Of a DNA stretch of 64,000 nt, positions 2 to 28,400 are shown piece after piece. How positions within the stretch are numbered: position 1 is the first letter of the stretch; each line of letters begins with the position of its first letter. Source of the DNA: Paracyclopina nana (lineage: Eukaryota > Arthropoda > Copepoda > Cyclopoida > Cyclopettidae); contig JAGUCH010000001.1 of the NCBI GenBank assembly GCA_019096065.1, positions 3,782,001 to 3,846,000 on the forward strand, written 5' to 3'. The notes beneath the pieces were generated by a model. It did not search any database. It was not told the origin of the DNA and saw only the letters and a list, made by a program, of their open reading frames with translations. Made by a program: the position numbers and the translations under genes.

Positions 2-3000
2 GAGAAGTCGGGCAACGCTCAATATTTGGCCTCGAATCGGGTCCTCATCACCAACTACGACAGAGATGCTCAAAGTGCTGTGGAAGAACATTTTAACCGA
101 GCTCTCAGCTACGCCAACAGCGAAGCTCCAGAAAAAGGTATTTCGCATTTGACACTTTTTCTTTAGCGACCGTTTTTGCTCATCTATCATTACTCATCAC
201 TACGCTGCACCGTTAGCTTCCTTAAAAGACGCCTAGACAAACATTTGGCCAGCATTTGGAACTAGATCGGATGCGGAAAAACAAAAACTGTCTCGTCAAT
301 GTCTACTAGTAGTTCTGCCGAAAGTTAAGGATACTCATGGCTCAAAGGGTCAAGCCGCGTATGAGCGGAGCTAGCTCTTGCGACACTTTTGATAAAATTG
401 GCGGAAGTTCTGTCTGACGAACCATAGTGCCGAGGTCGAAGTTGTCGTCTTCAGAGAGCTCAGATTTCTCATTTTCAAGTGCACCCTCTGAAGAGTCATA
501 GGAGCGCCATTTTTAAGGAGCTTCTCTAGAAGAGTTAACTTTTCATTTACTACTCAATTGGAAGCGAGACCTCAGGATAGAGTGGCTGAGCAACCACTAG
601 TTCTGTAAGAGCTTATCGTGAATGCACTTTTTGTGGCAATTACACGATGATAAATTAATGAAGGATTGTCAAAAATTGTCCCCCATGCGAAGAGACGACT
701 TAATCTGGAGTCGTTTGTTCTGAGCACCACCCCCACTCATGTTTTTTAGCATGAAGACTACGAGAAGAAAAATCGTTGTCTAGTAAACTGCACTCTACTT
801 ACTAAAAGAGTCTTGCATTTTCGGCCACCAATGAGTGTGAAATCCTAAAATCATTTGCGGGAATCCGATTCTTCACACTACAGTGGCTCTCTTTCTGTCA
901 CCTTGACTTGAGAAAAAATTCCTCAATGTGGGTGAAAAATGACTTACTTTGCTATCAAGGATAAGGAGTATCTCTTCCACATGTAGAACATGCATCTGTC
1001 CCGCGTTGAGAAAAGCCAAGCTGAGCAGAAATGGGAAGTGTCTGAGGAAGTGATTTGGCAGCCAGACAATTAGAATTGGTCAGACCAAACTTTTCGCTGT
1101 CAAGTCTGCAAAATGTCTTCGGCGAAGAACTAGCTCTCATTTTTTCCAGTGTATTTCTCGTCGAGCTCATTTACACCTGCTCTTGGTGGTCTAGTTCAAC
1201 ATCTGCACTTTTATGGACTCCCAGCTTTACAAAGTAATGATGACCTTCACCCAGAAACCCTAGTGAGGATCACATTACTTGTCTTCTTCCAAATTTGATA
1301 AGATGAGCAGCTTCAGAGCTTGCAAGCAAAAAAAAACTTGCTGAAGAGGAGCTCCTCAATATTAGCAAAGTGTTTCGATTATATAGTAGTAGATCGACAA
1401 ATTACGAGACGACATAGTTGTCATGCCCTCCTCATGTTTTTCAGCATTTTTCGCATTTCCAAGCCAATTAAGGAATTGAATAGGTGGCTGCTAATAGTTC
1501 AACCGGTTCATGTTCTACACAAAAAATACCATTTGAGCCATAAGGTTGTCTACACCTAAAAACAACTCAAAATTCCAGAACCGTCGTTGATTTGTTGATT
1601 TTCATCTTTTGCTGATATGGTGCTTATCAGCAAACCCAGTGTTAAGCACTTTAGGCAAGCTGGGCAAGGTTTGGAGTAAACACATTTTTGGCTCTCAAGT
1701 TTTCCACGATAGCTAGTAGAGCTCACCCCAAATACTATATGCTTCGTCTGCTCAAGACTGATGAATGTTAGGCGAAATTATCAGTGACACGCCCATAAAA
1801 TTCGAGTTGAATAAACAAAGGTGAAATTCCACCAATAGTCAGGCGAAGAAGAAGGTCGGAGCGAGGAGCGCAAATCGCCATGTTTTATCAGATAACTATT
1901 TCTGCCGAGTTTCTCGTTATTCTTTTCAGCTTGAACGGGTCCAGCAGCTTCATGGCTGGAAAAATGCGAAATGCAAAGAGTGTACCTGCTGTCAGGCCTA
2001 ATTTAAATGCTTTTGACTTTACAGCCCCCACTCCAATGAGCCAAAGAGGCTTGCCAGCGTCATTTTGGCAGCTACCTCAGCCGAATCTAAACGGCCACCA
2101 CAACCCGCTGGGCACGCCGGTCAGCAGTAGCGCGGCCGCGGCCTCATACGCTGACCTCTACTCGGATCAGCTGCAGCAGGCGGCTGCGCTTCATCAGCTG
2201 GCCGCTGAATGGCAGTACCCGTCAGCTGCTCACTCAGCTCAAACCAGTTACGCCAGCCGGTCAGCTGCCGCCGCCGCCGCTCACCCTTACAACTACAGCC
2301 GGTTTCACCAGCCGTCCTCAGCTGCTGCAGGCAGCTACTGGGCATCCCGGCTGGCGGCTGGCCAGGTCAAAGGCGAGTGGGCCCCAAGCGACTACCAGGC
2401 TGCTGCGGCCGCTGCAGCCCTCCAGGGAGCCTCAGGCCTCCATAACGCAGCTGGCGACTTTTCGCACCACTACGGGGCCGCTGCCGCTCATCACTATTCG
2501 AACATGACTGGTGAGTAACAATTTATTGGGCTGTCTGTCATTAATTCAGCTATTAGACATTATTTTGACACCATTAGAGGCCAGACGGTCACATTGTATG
2601 TGGGAAAACTGACCAGACAGCAGCATCATTCCTGCGACAACGGTCTTTTAATTGCAGTGCGTCATGTGCAGCATATTTATTTTTAAATCGATCCTAGCAT
2701 AATATGTTATATGATTCAGCCATAAAAATCAATGAATGCTACGCATCTAGTCTTGCATAGCTAATGCTAATTGTTGGGGTGACCCCTATTTCTAACAAGT
2801 GCGCGTAGCAAATCATCTTCATTTTCAATGAATCAAAAAAGTGATGCGGCAAATTCCGATTGCAGCAGGGGTTCAAATTTCTTTTTGAATCTCGAAACAG
2901 AAAAGGTTGCGCGCACACACGTGCTTTGAGATAGATCAAAAAGTGAGGGTTTTTTGAGTGTAAGTGTGGGAAAAGATGGGCTAAGCAGATTGTATCTCTT

Positions 3001-20909: not shown

Positions 20910-22853
20910 TTACAGCTCTCTCTCAAAAATGTATTTCATCTCTGTGGTCAGACCGTCCACTTTGGAGCTCTAAAATTGATCAGTGTTAAGTGCGATTTTT
21001 TTTAAAAACGGAACGTATCAACTCACAAAGACTAAAAACGTTGCTCCAAACCATACGTTTGTTCTAAAAACCCATTTGGGATACGTTGAGACAATCTTAA
21101 TCTTGTTCCCTCTTTTCCAGGCCTGGCACTTGAAATTCGACTTGAATGCATCATCATGAACTTCAAACTCCTCTCCATACTTGGACTTGAGAGTCATTGG
21201 TGCCAGGCGGCTCTTGAAATCCAGGCTGAAGGTCTCCCCCTTCTCCTGGATTTCCAAGCTCAAGTCATACTCTGTGGCGAATTCAGCCGCTTGGGCCTGA
21301 GACAGGCCCATTTCTAGTATGCCCTCCTCAGCTCCAACAATTTCAGAGACTCGCCAAACTCCAGAAGGCTCATGATATTTCTGCATCAGTAGCTCGCAGG
21401 TTTCTCCAGTAGTCATATTTTTACCTCTCTGTAGAATTGAGTATAATTTTTTTAAAGCTGATAGTTTTGCAGGATGTGGATATTGGGGAATTTACCATTT
21501 CGAGGAAAGTATGGTGAAAAACCAAAATCCATTCTTCAATTGATCCACTTTCGAAAGTCTTAGTTGCTTTATAAGTGTGTGGACCCATTTTCTCTACCAA
21601 CAGCTTGTAAGTTTCTTTCACTGAAAGCAATTTACTTTACTGATCATGCAAACTTATTTGAGCTTCGTGTACTTATTGTACTGGATATGGCCATTTCTTC
21701 CCCTAAATCAACTTGAATAACATCAACATCATCTTTCAGGTAGCTGACCCAACGCAACGAATTCGCAGAGGAAGGATTCCAAAACAGCCTTAAATCCCGC
21801 ATATTTTGGTCAGCGCCCCACTTTTTGGCCAGTTCGTCAAAGTTCTTATCAGACAAGTACTTGTAAAACCCTACTTCATCCACCTGGAAAAGCCTTCGTA
21901 GCCAAAGCCGGCCACATTCCCCGCTAGTCAAATTTTCCCCTGTGATTTCTGCTCCAGACTCGTGAAGGTATACATTCCACTCCTCTACTGTTTGGTTGGG
22001 TTGTTCAATAACCATCTTGAACCGGTTGTAGCCGATTTGAGTGACGGTATTGAAGTGCGAGGCCTCTGAAAGTGCCACGATATTAGATTATCTCCATGAG
22101 ATATGGTCTAGAATCCTCACCTCCCATTTTGACTTCCTTCTTAGCTCCAAATTTGGACGAGGTGACCAGCTTCAAGTCCCCAAACCATTCAGTCATTGTG
22201 AAATCCTCGGTAGAGGAGATCCACTTCATTTTGTAGTCTTCCAATGCATCGATAACCGCGTCAGGGGCTCCCCCTTTTTTCATCAGATTTTTCAAATTGC
22301 TGTCGCGTTCGTACACGTACATTAAGGAATTCTGCTTGCATTGCAGCTTTTTCAAGAACAACTCGCAAAACGAGCCCGTTGAAAGATTTTTTCCAGTCTG
22401 CAAAAAAAAGGGGATGCAGTAAAGCCATAATTTACTTTCTTTGGCTTTTTACAATGTAAGCCCCATTTGCGTGGAAATGCACATTCCATTGCTCGACAGT
22501 TCCATTTTCTTGTCTAATCACCATTTTGAAGCGGTTGTGCTCCACAAGCACAGTCTTATTGAAGTGAGAGTGCTCTACAAAAGTAATGATCGAGAAGGAT
22601 ATAGCATTTGCATAGATTATTCTTATTAATTACGCGGCCCAGTGGAAACTTGACACTCGATCCCAAAGCGAGACTTTGTGACTACATGAGCGGGCCCAAA
22701 CCATTCCTCCATATGAAATTCATTGCTGTCGTTGCTCCACTGCATCTGATAATTTTTTAGAACTGCCAAAAGTTGGTCGGGTGCTCCACCGTCTTTCATC
22801 ACAGCTGACAAATTATTGTCTGAGTCATAGCAATATAACTTTGGCGAGTCCAT
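20910..22853 (-). CDS. Four-domain FABP-like protein (Cys-poor paralog)
   Basis: Exons in transcript order: 22853-22634, 22574-22453, 22397-22121, 22065-21682, 21620-21496, 21428-21027, 20969-20910; 529 residues. All seven joins keep frame, and introns are 55-67 nt. Four calycin/FABP-like units are arranged in tandem; the first opens KLYCYDSDNNL and the last ends TTEMKYIFEREL. The last unit is the clearest, with KSKYGEEFEVHDDAFKSN matching the FABP F.LGEEF(D/E) turn. Units close with G(K/E)N..(T/S)G...C. The final 19-residue exon matches the usual last FABP exon. About 7 Cys in total. The start is the first ATG in the frame; an upstream leader exon cannot be excluded, because the frame stays open above it to an acceptor at about 22900. 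There is no signal peptide in this model. Family lipid binding is inferred; the fold assignment rests on motifs and gene structure. Confidence 0.72.
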
Positions 22854-23516
22854 TTTATTAGCTTGCGTAGCTCCTGATTGTCGAAAAAGACCCCTGCAAC
22901 TAAAGAAGCCCACTAAGATTAAGCAGTCAATATTTTACGGGTGCGGTTGTAAACATTAAATTCGTCACGTTTTCCATAACCCCTCTATTTTGCACTAACC
23001 AAGCTCTTCATGTATAGGCGAGACAATCACCACGAACAGTTCATCACTTGTTCATATTTCTCAATTGGATGAGTTTTATGTTTGATAAGCAAAAATGCTG
23101 CAACAGTTTTCCTCTTTGATTTTAAAAGCACATTATTGCACATGTTTATGTGAGCAATTTTTAGTTCTTTGGCTATGTGTACGTACCCAAAAGTGCATTG
23201 TAAACAACTTGAAAAGTTCAGCTCGCCTGTTGTTGACGACAAATCTCCTTGAGCGGATGACTGGACACCTTTTTCAAAAGAGAGTGAGAGTTTGATAAAT
23301 CTCACGCATGTACTGTAAATTTCCATGCCGTGAGCATGTTCCTCGTGATCGTCAAAAAGTATACGGTGAACTTTTACAAATGTCCACCAGAGTACTCCTG
23401 ATGGGTTTTGGGGGCTCGAGCCTGCAGCTTATAAAAGGGGACCAGGCCTGGGTCTCGCCCCTCATTTCGAGTCTGTCATTTCTCCGATAAAGTGCGAGAA
23501 AACGTTATCCGTCAAC
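22854..23516. promoter_or_regulatory. Shared divergent promoter region of the FABP-like pair
   Basis: 663 bp separate the two start codons. The plus side has a strong TATA/initiator pair. The minus side has only a weak TATA-like CATAAAAC near 23073-23080. A minus-strand ATGAAGAGCTTG at 23011 followed by a donor (gttagt) does not splice in frame to the next exon, so it is at most a short upstream ORF. Short distance and common ancestry suggest possible co-regulation (inference). Confidence 0.45.
23430..23467 (+). promoter_or_regulatory. TATA box and initiator of the Cys-rich FABP-like gene
   Basis: TATAAAAG at 23430-23437, flanked by GC, is followed about 34 nt later by CTCATTT, an initiator-like TCA. 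The start codon lies about 55 nt beyond, giving a short 5' UTR. A consensus TATA fits an inducible or highly expressed tissue-specific gene. Confidence 0.6.
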
Positions 23517-25084
23517 ATGGTGAAGACCACTGGAACCTTCTGTCATACCGTCTGTCAAAAGGACTGTGACTTTTATGCCAGCTGTAAGTGCCTTTGGTGC
23601 AACATTTTTAGCTTTAAGTAAGGCAGCTCAATTTTTGATTGTATCCTAGGTGGGTATGGGGATGAAGCCCAAAAGTGGCTTGGCATGACGTTGAAAATGA
23701 CTAGCTGCGAGGTTGGCCATGGCAAATTGGCTTGTCATTGGCAATGCGACTCCATGCCCAGCATGAATTCTTTCCACGTCTTCTGTGAGGGAGTGAAGAA
23801 CAAGTGCGATGCTCCCTTTCTGGGTGGAAAGTGTGAGGTGAAGTTTTGCAAAAACTCCACTGGAGACGGCTACGAGACGGAAGTTTGCTCTGAAAAGTAC
23901 GGGAAATGCCACTACTCTGAAAAATACACTGACGATGGCTTCAAATTGGTAAGGCTCAAAATTAACACTTTTCAATAGAGAATGAAATTAATGCTTCTTT
24001 CATATTTAGACCATTTGCAAGGATGGCAAGATGCACGAGGAGCATTGGGAAAGGATGGTTTGCGAGGACGGCTACTATAGGACGACCAAGTGCGAGAACG
24101 TCAAGGAGTTCATGAGGAAGGAAGGCATGCCTGAGGATTTTTGCGCCAAGGCCGATGACTACAAGCTTTGCTGGAAGGCCTGCGATTCTGGTTTCAAGAT
24201 GACCGAATGCTGGGGAGATTTAAAGGTTTGCTGCAATGGCAAATTTGACGAGGAGTGCGACTACAAGTTCCCCGTTGAAGGTGGAGTACTATTTCAGGCC
24301 TAGTTCACTGTAAAATTATCAATATTAATCACAGGTTGCCCCCCTTGCAAGTTTTTGGTCACTCGGTGCGGAAAGGGAATGTACAAATGTATCACCAAGG
24401 CCGAGGGATCTACCTGCGAATGGACGTACAAGTTTTGCGACGGCTCTCTCGAAATCGTAAGTTATATGCTCGCGTACGTTTTTCTGCGCTCTAAGCAAGT
24501 CCTTTTGGCGCAGGTTGGCAAAAATCTGAAAACTGGCGAGAAGTGCAGCATTTGCATGGTCAAATGTTGCCCCATGGCTGGCACCTACAAGCCCATTTGC
24601 ATGACTGGCATCACCGAACCCATGATGGCTTTGGGTATTTTCTATGCATAATCAATATTTGATTATGTTAATAATTGGAGTTGTTTCTAGGCGTCCCTGC
24701 TGACATGTGCCACAAGTTGGCCAATGAGTTTGATGCCAGGCTGATCGTTGAGGACAAGTGCCCTGTTTATCGTTGGTGCTGGAAGTCCGAGCTCTGCCCA
24801 ATGGACATGTGCTTCAAGTTTGACGAGGAGTTCGAAGTCTTCGATCCTGTCTTGAAGGCGAACTGCAAGTGCATTTGCACCATGAGTGGAAATTGCATTA
24901 TTAGCGTTTGCAAGTATCCCAACTTTACTCTCAAAACTAAGTGTACCATCACCGACAACTTTTGCGTCATGGTAAGATTACTATCTGTAAGTATTCTGTC
25001 CTGCTAAAATGGCGTGCTTTTCAGAAATCCTGCATTGAAGGCATGAAGTGCCCACCCATGACCTACGTTTTGGAGAGATGCTAA
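23517..25084 (+). CDS. Cysteine-rich three-domain FABP-like protein
   Basis: Exons 23517-23583, 23650-23948, 24010-24280, 24335-24456, 24514-24634, 24691-24971 and 25025-25084; 406 residues. Every junction keeps frame, and introns are 53-66 nt. Three FABP-like units: about 5-138, 139-272 and 273-406. Unit 3 is diagnostic (FKFDEEFEVFDPVLKAN) and aligns with the last unit of the minus neighbour (KYGEEFEVHDDAFKSN). Exon 1 (22 residues) and the last exon (19 residues) match the ends of the classical four-exon FABP gene. There are 49 Cys (12%), including CPPC at 214-217, CSIC at 264-267, CC at 196-197 and 271-272, alternating CKCIC at 352-356, and a C-terminal Cys. It starts MVKTTGTFC with no signal peptide, so it is probably cytosolic. 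Thiol-metal binding or disulfide crosslinking are possible roles (inference). A secreted adhesive by a non-classical route is less likely. Confidence 0.8.
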
Positions 25085-25406: not shown

Positions 25407-28400
25407 TTAGAACCAATAAAGGTCTTTCGATGGTCCTTGCATCGTTCCCTCCAGACCTGCAATCATAAAAGAAGCATCTTGAAAGCAATATACTACTGGA
25501 GTATCCTAGTTCATTGTTAGAGTACGCATATGAGAAGCGAGAGAGGCGCAATATTTTCCCAGGCGACATTTGTTTACATTTTTGCTGTCTTTTTAACTCT
25601 TAACTTGTCAAAGCTAAAACTTGCATGAAAAAAGATGACCGCCGATCTCTCAAGATCGAGAAACTTTAGCTCATACTCTTTGTCAGTAGCGCAGTGCCAG
25701 GAGCATTATGTGTTGAAAACCATCGAGATCTCTAGGGGAAGAAAGGGTCTCGTCTAGGAAATGAAATTCCTTGCCAGTTTGGAATGCGGCAAGGGGCTTT
25801 CTCTTTTGTCAGCCTTAGCTTCGGTGGAGAAGGAGGAGGGACTACTACCATATAAGAAGAATAAAATGGGAAATGACGTCGCCCTCTCCTTCGTCGCCGT
25901 TGCTCGTCGAGAAATTAATTATGCTTTCCCCCCATGTTCCTGCAGAGTTGCCACCGCGCAAAACGAAGTGAAATGGCAAAAAGTAGAATGGCTGATTTAT
26001 ATGAGAAAAGTAAGTTGAGTGTATCAGGTAAAAAATGTAGTGCGGGGGTTCGTTCGGCAACAAAAGAGACTCTCCAGAAAAGAAAGTACCACACATTCGT
26101 ACCAAAGCAATTTGATGGTATATTATATGCGGTATTTAAAAATGCATTGCGTAATGTAAGCCATGTGCTAACTTCGGCGGCCTCATCTCAATTTCAAGTT
26201 GAAAGGAAGACAATGCTCATTGACAAGTCAAGCCACAACAAGACAGCAAAAAAGCTGTAACCCAAGACAAATTCAACACTTTTTTTTCTCGTACCTGTCA
26301 TGGCCGCTGAATAATGGGGGTGAGTGGAGGCTGCTGCGGCAGCGGAAGTAAAGCCATCTACCGCTGCACTTCCGGCGACGGCTGACGCTGCAGCTGCCCA
26401 AGAATCACTGGGAGCCTTGCCCAAGGCTGCTGCCACCTGGCGGCCTTGCTGGTGGGCCTGCCTTGCTATGGCGGAGCTTTGCAAGTGCAGCAGCGAGGAG
26501 TACTGACTACGCGCCGAGTACATATCGGCAGAGGCGCGGTGATGCTGGTGGTAGCTCGTCATGTAATTGTGCCACGGGTCAGCCGCGCTGGCAGCTGCTG
26601 AGACGTAGGCGTCGTACGGGTCATACTGGTGCTGCATGGGGTAGCCCTGAGGGTGCCCGCTGCCAACCTGACTTTGAAGATGACTGTGACTCTGCACATA
26701 GTAGTCGCTGACCCAGAAGCTGGGCGGCAAATTGCGCTGCGACATAGGAACTGGAGAATCTGAAAAAAGCATACACAGTTATATATGGGCCCTTGTTATT
26801 CCGAATGTCTGCTGATGAGGACAAATTACCACTTTGTTGCTTGGCACTCTCAGAGTGCTGCTCTGGCGATGATCCTCCTCCGCTACTGCTGTTGTTGGCC
26901 CGTTTCAGGGCTCGGTTGAAGTGATCATCAATTGCTGCAGTCAAATCTCCGCTATAAAAAGTGTATACGACGCAATTAGCCGTGAGATATTGCGGCTGCT
27001 GGCCGGCCTCCGACTCGATGATATCGTCTCTAATTTCGCTCTTTTCGCTCTTATTACTATTGTCCTCGTAAGCACTGGCACGACTATTACTGCGGCTGGA
27101 AACTGTCACATCAATCGAGGCTGACAGCCGTTGCAACGCGGCCACGGACGGGGCCATGGTCGAGGCCGGCAGAGGCTGGTGGACGAGTGGCGAGGATGCC
27201 GAGAGGTAGCTGCTTTGATGAGTCTCGTGGTGAGGAGACATTGGCGGTTGCATGCTCCCCCCATGGTGACCTCTGTGGTCGTACACGCTTTCGTTGGGAT
27301 GCTGCATGTCCCCATATGACAATCGTTTCTGGAAGAAATGAGGGCCGGTGTGCTTCATATATTGCGTCAAAACATGCAGAAATGCATCGTGTCGCGTCGG
27401 CGAAAAACCCTTAAAGAAAATGCCCGAATTCCAAGATTCTTCGCATTTTATGCTAGCCAACTGGATTTTTCCTACTCTGCTGAAGCCGCGTTGTACTGTA
27501 CTAGGCTATTTTTTGGCGTAATTAGATATTCCCACGGCATCTAGCAGAATTGAAGCGAATGCTAATAGAGTTTTTTGCCCAAAAAAATGAGAATCAGATA
27601 TTTATCTTGAAGAAACGCAGATGTATCGATCTGATCAAGATCTCCAGTCTCCCCCCTGCAGGTAGGCCAAAAGTCTACGAGATCGACTAATGCGACATTT
27701 ATCTTTGAGGTAGCCGGTTTCTTCTTTTCAAATGGAACCGCTTAAGGAACCAAAAAAGTGACAAAATGGACATGGGCTGAATTTCAATTTGTGGGAATCC
27801 TTCTGCTACAAATGCAAATGATTCATGGGCCCGACCCTACTATAGTGTTAGTATACCTTACTATACGCTTTTAAAGCTTTTGAAATATTTCATCGTGAGA
27901 AAAAGCTGGATTATCATAAACATAAGTAGATTGCCAATACATATGTGAAAGCTCTCTCACTCAGAACTGTCGAAATTTTGGCTACAGTTCATTTCCGTTT
28001 AGCTTGTCCATCTGTCGCTAAGCTTCACACCCTCAAGATAATGGAGGCAAAAGTTTTCAGCTTTTTTTTGCCACTTTTTTCCGAGATCTTTAAAGCGACA
28101 TTTGTCAGCACTGTGCGTTGACTTTGCGCAAATAGGCGATTTTTCTTGCTATCTCAAAACAGTCAGAAAGGGGTATAGAGTTACAAAGAATGTGTGATAA
28201 GTACAAAAGCTAAGAACTCCACTTGATAACGTCCCTTGGGATAAAGCAGACATTTTAGCACTAAAACACATTCGGACAGCTTTTTTAGGATGCTTTAGAG
28301 CAGGCAGAAAATTCTTACTGTTTTTCCTCTGGATGCTGGCGAGTTGGGATTGGGGCTTCCCTCAGCCTCAGCCTCTAACGATCGCCCCCCGTGATGATGG

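Follow-up and report, generated by a model that had tools for sequence, protein, structure and literature searches.

Gene Model and Upstream Region

The window analyzed here is a stretch of 64,000 nucleotides from Paracyclopina nana. At positions 23517–25084 of its forward strand lies a gene with seven exons and six GT–AG introns, which join cleanly into 406 codons and a stop (Table 1). The translated gene model contains 49 cysteine residues in 406 (12.1%), encoded by 39 TGC and 10 TGT codons; this corresponds to 49 thiols in a 46 kDa protein. Exon joining confirmed the coordinates, the length, and the cysteine count of the original prediction, and its CPPC, CSIC, and CKCIC motifs and the C-terminal Cys406 are all present in the translation. 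The start of the protein agrees with that of relatives opening with MVNKFGTF, including P0001 and P0002. The hydropathy of the first 40 residues revealed no hydrophobic stretch and hence no N-terminus resembling a signal peptide, in agreement with the original prediction. Cysteine makes up 0.9–2.9% of five further open coding pieces in the window, a comparison from which one vestigial-like piece in a wrong frame was left out. The GC3 of the coding sequence is 0.66, compared to 0.52 for the neighboring paralogue and 0.44–0.61 for these five pieces.

Table 1. Features of the locus (positions in the window).
Feature	Positions	Strand	Content	Basis
Divergent paralogue	20910..22853	−	about four FABP-like units; head-to-head with the 23517–25084 gene	exon boundaries and number of units judged by eye
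Candidate TATA-box-like site, TATAAAAG	23430..23437	+	87 bases 5′ of ATG	sequence
Exon 1	23517..23583	+	start of the unit 1 barrel	gene model
Exon 2	23650..23948	+	bulk of barrel unit 1	gene model
Exon 3	24010..24280	+	last part of unit 1, first half of unit 2	gene model
Exon 4	24335..24456	+	unit 2, most of CPPC	gene model
Exon 5	24514..24634	+	last part of unit 2, with CSIC; beginning of unit 3	gene model
Exon 6	24691..24971	+	bulk of unit 3, with CKCIC	gene model
Exon 7	25025..25084	+	final strands, Cys406, TAA	gene model

The intergenic stretch upstream comprises 651 bases. TATAAAAG matches once in it, against 0.34 matches expected at the whole-window rate. Response elements for metals or oxidative stress did not occur above chance in these 651 bases; the metal-response core TGCRCNC was absent against 0.52 expected, which is a weak negative.

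The paralogue on the reverse strand is a second multi-barrel protein adjoining the first. It aligns with residues 254–388 of the 406-residue protein at 32% identity (E=5.3e−17), and its approximate exon pieces contain 7 cysteines in 518 residues. The two genes have at least one intron position in common, before (T/V)GKNL. Three protein searches of the genome (92 Mb, 10 contigs), whose counts are lower bounds, gave no further copy past this divergent neighbor. Single FABP-type or lipocalin matches do occur elsewhere in the genome; pieces of five out of one set of eight were translated. The FABP pieces L021 and L023 have no cysteine and the lipocalin-type piece L024 has two; L022 and L025 were left out for their doubtful frame. 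The FABP-type match L011/L021 (G000:C7, about 1054163–1054399) is free of cysteine over 78 residues. The arthropod-type cuticle domain PF00379 has 80 matches across the genome; a COX1 search gave no match. Genome size, GC, and the sources of the relatives would suit a small planktonic crustacean, perhaps a copepod. Elsewhere in the window are two genes that we take to be vestigial-like, one at 1811–2518 (+) with MSQRGLPASFW and one at 26194–27505 (−) with VVYTFYSGDLTAAIDDHF and MSQRNLPPSFW.

Fold and Family

The 406-residue protein by itself matched no family in Pfam (E≤10) or NCBIfam (E≤1), and it does not reach the gathering cut-off of PF14651 (Lipocalin_7). This family was detected at E≤0.01 in 5 of the 18 relatives in alignment A5; of nine relatives scored, only P0010 exceeded the gathering cut-off. 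A search of the PDB with the single sequence returned fatty acid binding proteins (FABPs) at a best E of only 0.0093. The five-sequence family profile A1 resembles the FABP group: its top PDB match was myelin P2, with E=3.9e−14 over unit 3.

The fold was assessed on models of two relatives, P0002 and P0035, which are 39 and 46% identical to the 406-residue protein. AlphaFold predicted 30 strands, 6 helices, and three FABP-type units for both, with a mean pLDDT of 84.9 for P0002 (15 rows) and 90.6 for P0035 (18 rows), which itself has 29 cysteines. Each unit is thus modeled as the ten-strand barrel with two lid helices that is typical of the group. The rows shown for the P0002 model in Foldseek and VIA were FABP-type proteins. 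Judged on these relatives, barrels in the 406-residue protein are well supported, and the three tandem FABP-like units originally proposed are borne out by the two models.

Searching with just the sequence gave 4 relatives among 181 candidates; profile A1 yielded 31 out of 775 and profile A3 yielded 20 out of 1703, which makes 48 distinct proteins in total. Their source label is "merc", presumably a marine catalogue. Many are 401–492 residues long, and 40 of the 48 align with the 406-residue protein at E≤1e−3. P0001, P0002, and P0032–P0043 share its three-unit plan and are 32–47% identical to it over most or all of their length. P0001, P0002, and P0035 match it in length, and each is encoded without interruption on a contig of about 1.4 kb. 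The residues invariant in the family are retained in the 406-residue protein. The open reading frames of eight relatives (P0005, P0008, P0010, P0017, P0032, P0036, P0037, and P0042) open with MG and then unrelated residues ahead of the shared start, a pattern that reading through a common 5′ leader with ATGG would produce.

The protein is a cysteine-extreme member of a three-barrel family within the intracellular lipid-binding (FABP-type) fold group. Among the open-licence papers listed, judged by titles and the openings of abstracts, none concerns a three-barrel or cysteine-rich FABP, and the family itself seems to be undescribed. The original statement that no described FABP relative of this kind is known agrees with this, but the original prediction did not recognize the wider three-barrel family, one subclade of which is already mildly enriched in cysteine.

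Cysteine Gains Along the Branch

Five near relatives (P0032, P0033, P0034, P0035, and P0003) have 4.2–7.1% cysteine and the fragments P0024 and P0047 have 4.9 and 5.7%. The values are 1.2–3.3% for the remaining 33 aligned relatives and 1.0–2.5% for the eight that do not align. A tree was built from 24 of the 48 relatives plus the 406-residue protein (25 rows). In it, the protein lies inside a supported group of 14, with its position within the group left open; the tree program flags its odd letter make-up. Binary parsimony on this tree, rooted on 11 far rows, placed 35–41 gains of cysteine on its branch and not a single loss. This corresponds to 0.18–0.21 gains per expected substitution, compared to 0.00–0.10 on most other branches. 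Rates are equally high on some short branches and in the P0032/P0035 subclade, so the trend towards cysteine is shared.

Twenty-five of the 49 cysteine sites have cysteine in none of 14 aligned relatives; at 16 sites, one or more of the five near relatives have it. For each of the eight relatives tested, sites are shared more often than by chance (P=3e−7 to 5e−3), with 6–12 sites common with the near relatives against 1.8–3.3 expected; some positions may thus have specific roles or be inherited. The cysteine sites are somewhat more variable than others, with a top-residue share of 0.52 against 0.63.

Placement of the Cysteine Residues

Strands were taken from the P0002 model. A MAFFT alignment of the units misplaced strand B, and facing was therefore assigned by hand registers, using the DSSP assignment of P0002, the inward residues of P2, and the hydropathy of the relatives; this hydropathy does not back the registers for several strands (for example, A, I, and J of unit 1 and J of unit 3). 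By these registers, 36 of the 49 cysteines are on strands, 18 facing inward and 18 outward, and 13 are off strands. A thiol cluster lining the cavity was rejected as a general rule (Fisher P=1.0, hand register). Neighboring cysteine pairs on the barrel lattice number 11 against 10.9 expected, so there is no overall clustering. The clearest local group, again by hand register, consists of the inward Cys352, Cys354, and Cys356 in unit 3, with Cys367 opposite Cys354. Of the placements raised originally, neither the inside nor the outside of the barrels is preferred by these P0002-based registers. Conservation of cysteine positions across units was also rejected: there are 6 coincidences against 6.1 expected, in a comparison in which some unit 1 positions are approximate, Cys271 is counted in two units, and Cys396 is excluded.

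Along the chain, the cysteines are spaced more evenly than at random (standard deviation 4.8 against 7.4, P=0.00075), and this holds against two variable-site controls. None of the five near relatives has such even spacing (P=0.13 to 0.70). The motifs CC, CxC, and CxxC occur twice each, against random means of 5.8, 5.1, and 4.5 (singly P=0.05, 0.09, and 0.16). The pattern fits selection on the number of thiols and speaks against a metallothionein-like design.

The residues R106, R126, and Y128, which we take to be the carboxylate-binding triad of myelin P2, are kept in none of the three units by hand register. The equivalent sites are C378/Y401/L403 in unit 3, Y244/I266/M268 in unit 2, and E113/E133/W135 in unit 1. 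With no unit keeping the triad by these registers, even the binding of fatty acids cannot be taken for granted.

Comparison with Known Systems

Judged on the relatives' models, each unit resembles myelin P2, FABP4, and I-FABP in its barrel and two-helix lid. Unlike these proteins, the one described here has three fused units, 49 cysteines, no R106/R126/Y128 triad (hand register), and no Pfam match of its own. Metallothioneins are short proteins dominated by CC, CxC, and CxxC clusters; they likewise have many thiols and no signal peptide, whereas this protein belongs to a family of folded barrels and is long and poor in these motifs. It also differs from secreted disulfide-rich proteins, since the hydropathy of its first 40 residues does not indicate a signal peptide.

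Possible Function

The computation covers the gene model, the fold of the relatives, and the cysteine gains on the branch, and it is from this pattern that we infer a function. Our preferred explanation, which we put forward tentatively and at somewhat less than an even chance, is that the protein binds lipids in the cytosol and uses its many thiols to trap lipid electrophiles or oxidants. Selection would have raised the number of cysteines with the three barrels left intact. The protein would stay in the cytosol, as the missing signal peptide suggests, and its barrels would take in lipids or lipid-derived molecules. Scattered and mostly free thiols could then serve as sacrificial nucleophiles against aldehydes from lipid peroxidation, unsaturated aldehydes from the diet, and other oxidants. 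Single thiols dispersed on both faces would provide capacity without forming intramolecular disulfides. A narrower version, in which the polythiol is directed at lipid-derived electrophiles such as the unsaturated aldehydes of diatoms and selection on cysteine number has made it a lipid-targeted protein counterpart of glutathione, is possible but doubtful.

The sacrificial role is favored on two grounds: FABP cysteines are listed as sites of 4-hydroxynonenal adducts, and planktonic grazers encounter reactive aldehydes. Listed targets include Cys117 of A-FABP, Cys120 and Cys127 of E-FABP, and Cys69 of L-FABP (PMC10135105; PMC3368874). E-FABP and L-FABP thus offer a precedent for cysteine chemistry on the same fold, although only one or two reactive cysteines are listed for each and there are 49 here. 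In PMC4619725, diatom aldehydes are described as Michael acceptors and blamed for lower copepod reproduction. Other evidence counts against a scavenger. In the papers on FABPs, aldehyde adducts reduce ligand binding of A-FABP and L-FABP (PMC3368874; PMC10135105), so adducts may represent damage as much as defense. A scavenger of bound lipids might show enrichment of thiols in the cavity, and the cavity is no richer in them; the missing triad, the lack of even spacing in the near relatives, and the above-chance sharing of some cysteine sites with them also count against this reading.

The 49 thiols could instead bind Cu, Zn, or Cd, making the protein a metallothionein analogue built on barrels. 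The thiol content and the inward group around Cys354 (hand register) agree with metal sequestration, and the genome search gave no match to the metallothionein family PF00131, which does not prove its absence. The scarcity of CC, CxC, and CxxC, the lattice without overall clustering, and, weakly, the missing TGCRCNC core argue against it, and we consider it a real rival, though an unlikely one. The original suggestion of the barrel as a thiol scaffold therefore stands in part: the fold is kept in relatives, including the one with 29 cysteines, while cysteines were gained, but the metallothionein-like version is weakened by their dispersed and even placement. Somewhat less likely still is a structural or adhesive protein, in which surface thiols and Cys406 would link the barrels into a disulfide matrix. 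Half of the strand cysteines face outward (hand register), the spacing is even, and the last residue is a cysteine; against this, the N-terminus is not signal-peptide-like, and inward cysteines are as numerous as outward ones.

If selection acts on cysteine number and not on place, as it seems to, an abundant protein could also be a store of sulfur or amino acids, its cysteine content being itself the product. The raised GC3 is a weak hint of high expression, but storage proteins are usually secreted, and we regard a store as improbable. Least probable of all is neutral or compositional drift in a gene under weak constraint. The odd letter make-up relative to the family and the somewhat more variable cysteine sites would suit drift; the intact frame, splice sites, and full length, the retained invariant residues, a branch with gains only, and the low cysteine content of the other coding pieces in the window all stand against it.

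It is rare for a familiar barrel architecture to persist when about one-eighth of the residues are cysteine, and here intermediate relatives allow the path to be traced. Should the thiols indeed trap lipid electrophiles, grazers would have a protein with which to detoxify aldehydes, and the barrel would offer a new way of displaying thiols on a scaffold. The relatives of the same three-unit plan, P0001, P0002, and P0032–P0043, differ from it in having 1.5–7.1% cysteine. Seven of them, P0037–P0043, end in tails rich in Gln (for example, GFQQGQQQ or QNQNQNQ), which may reflect a further derived role for this scaffold.
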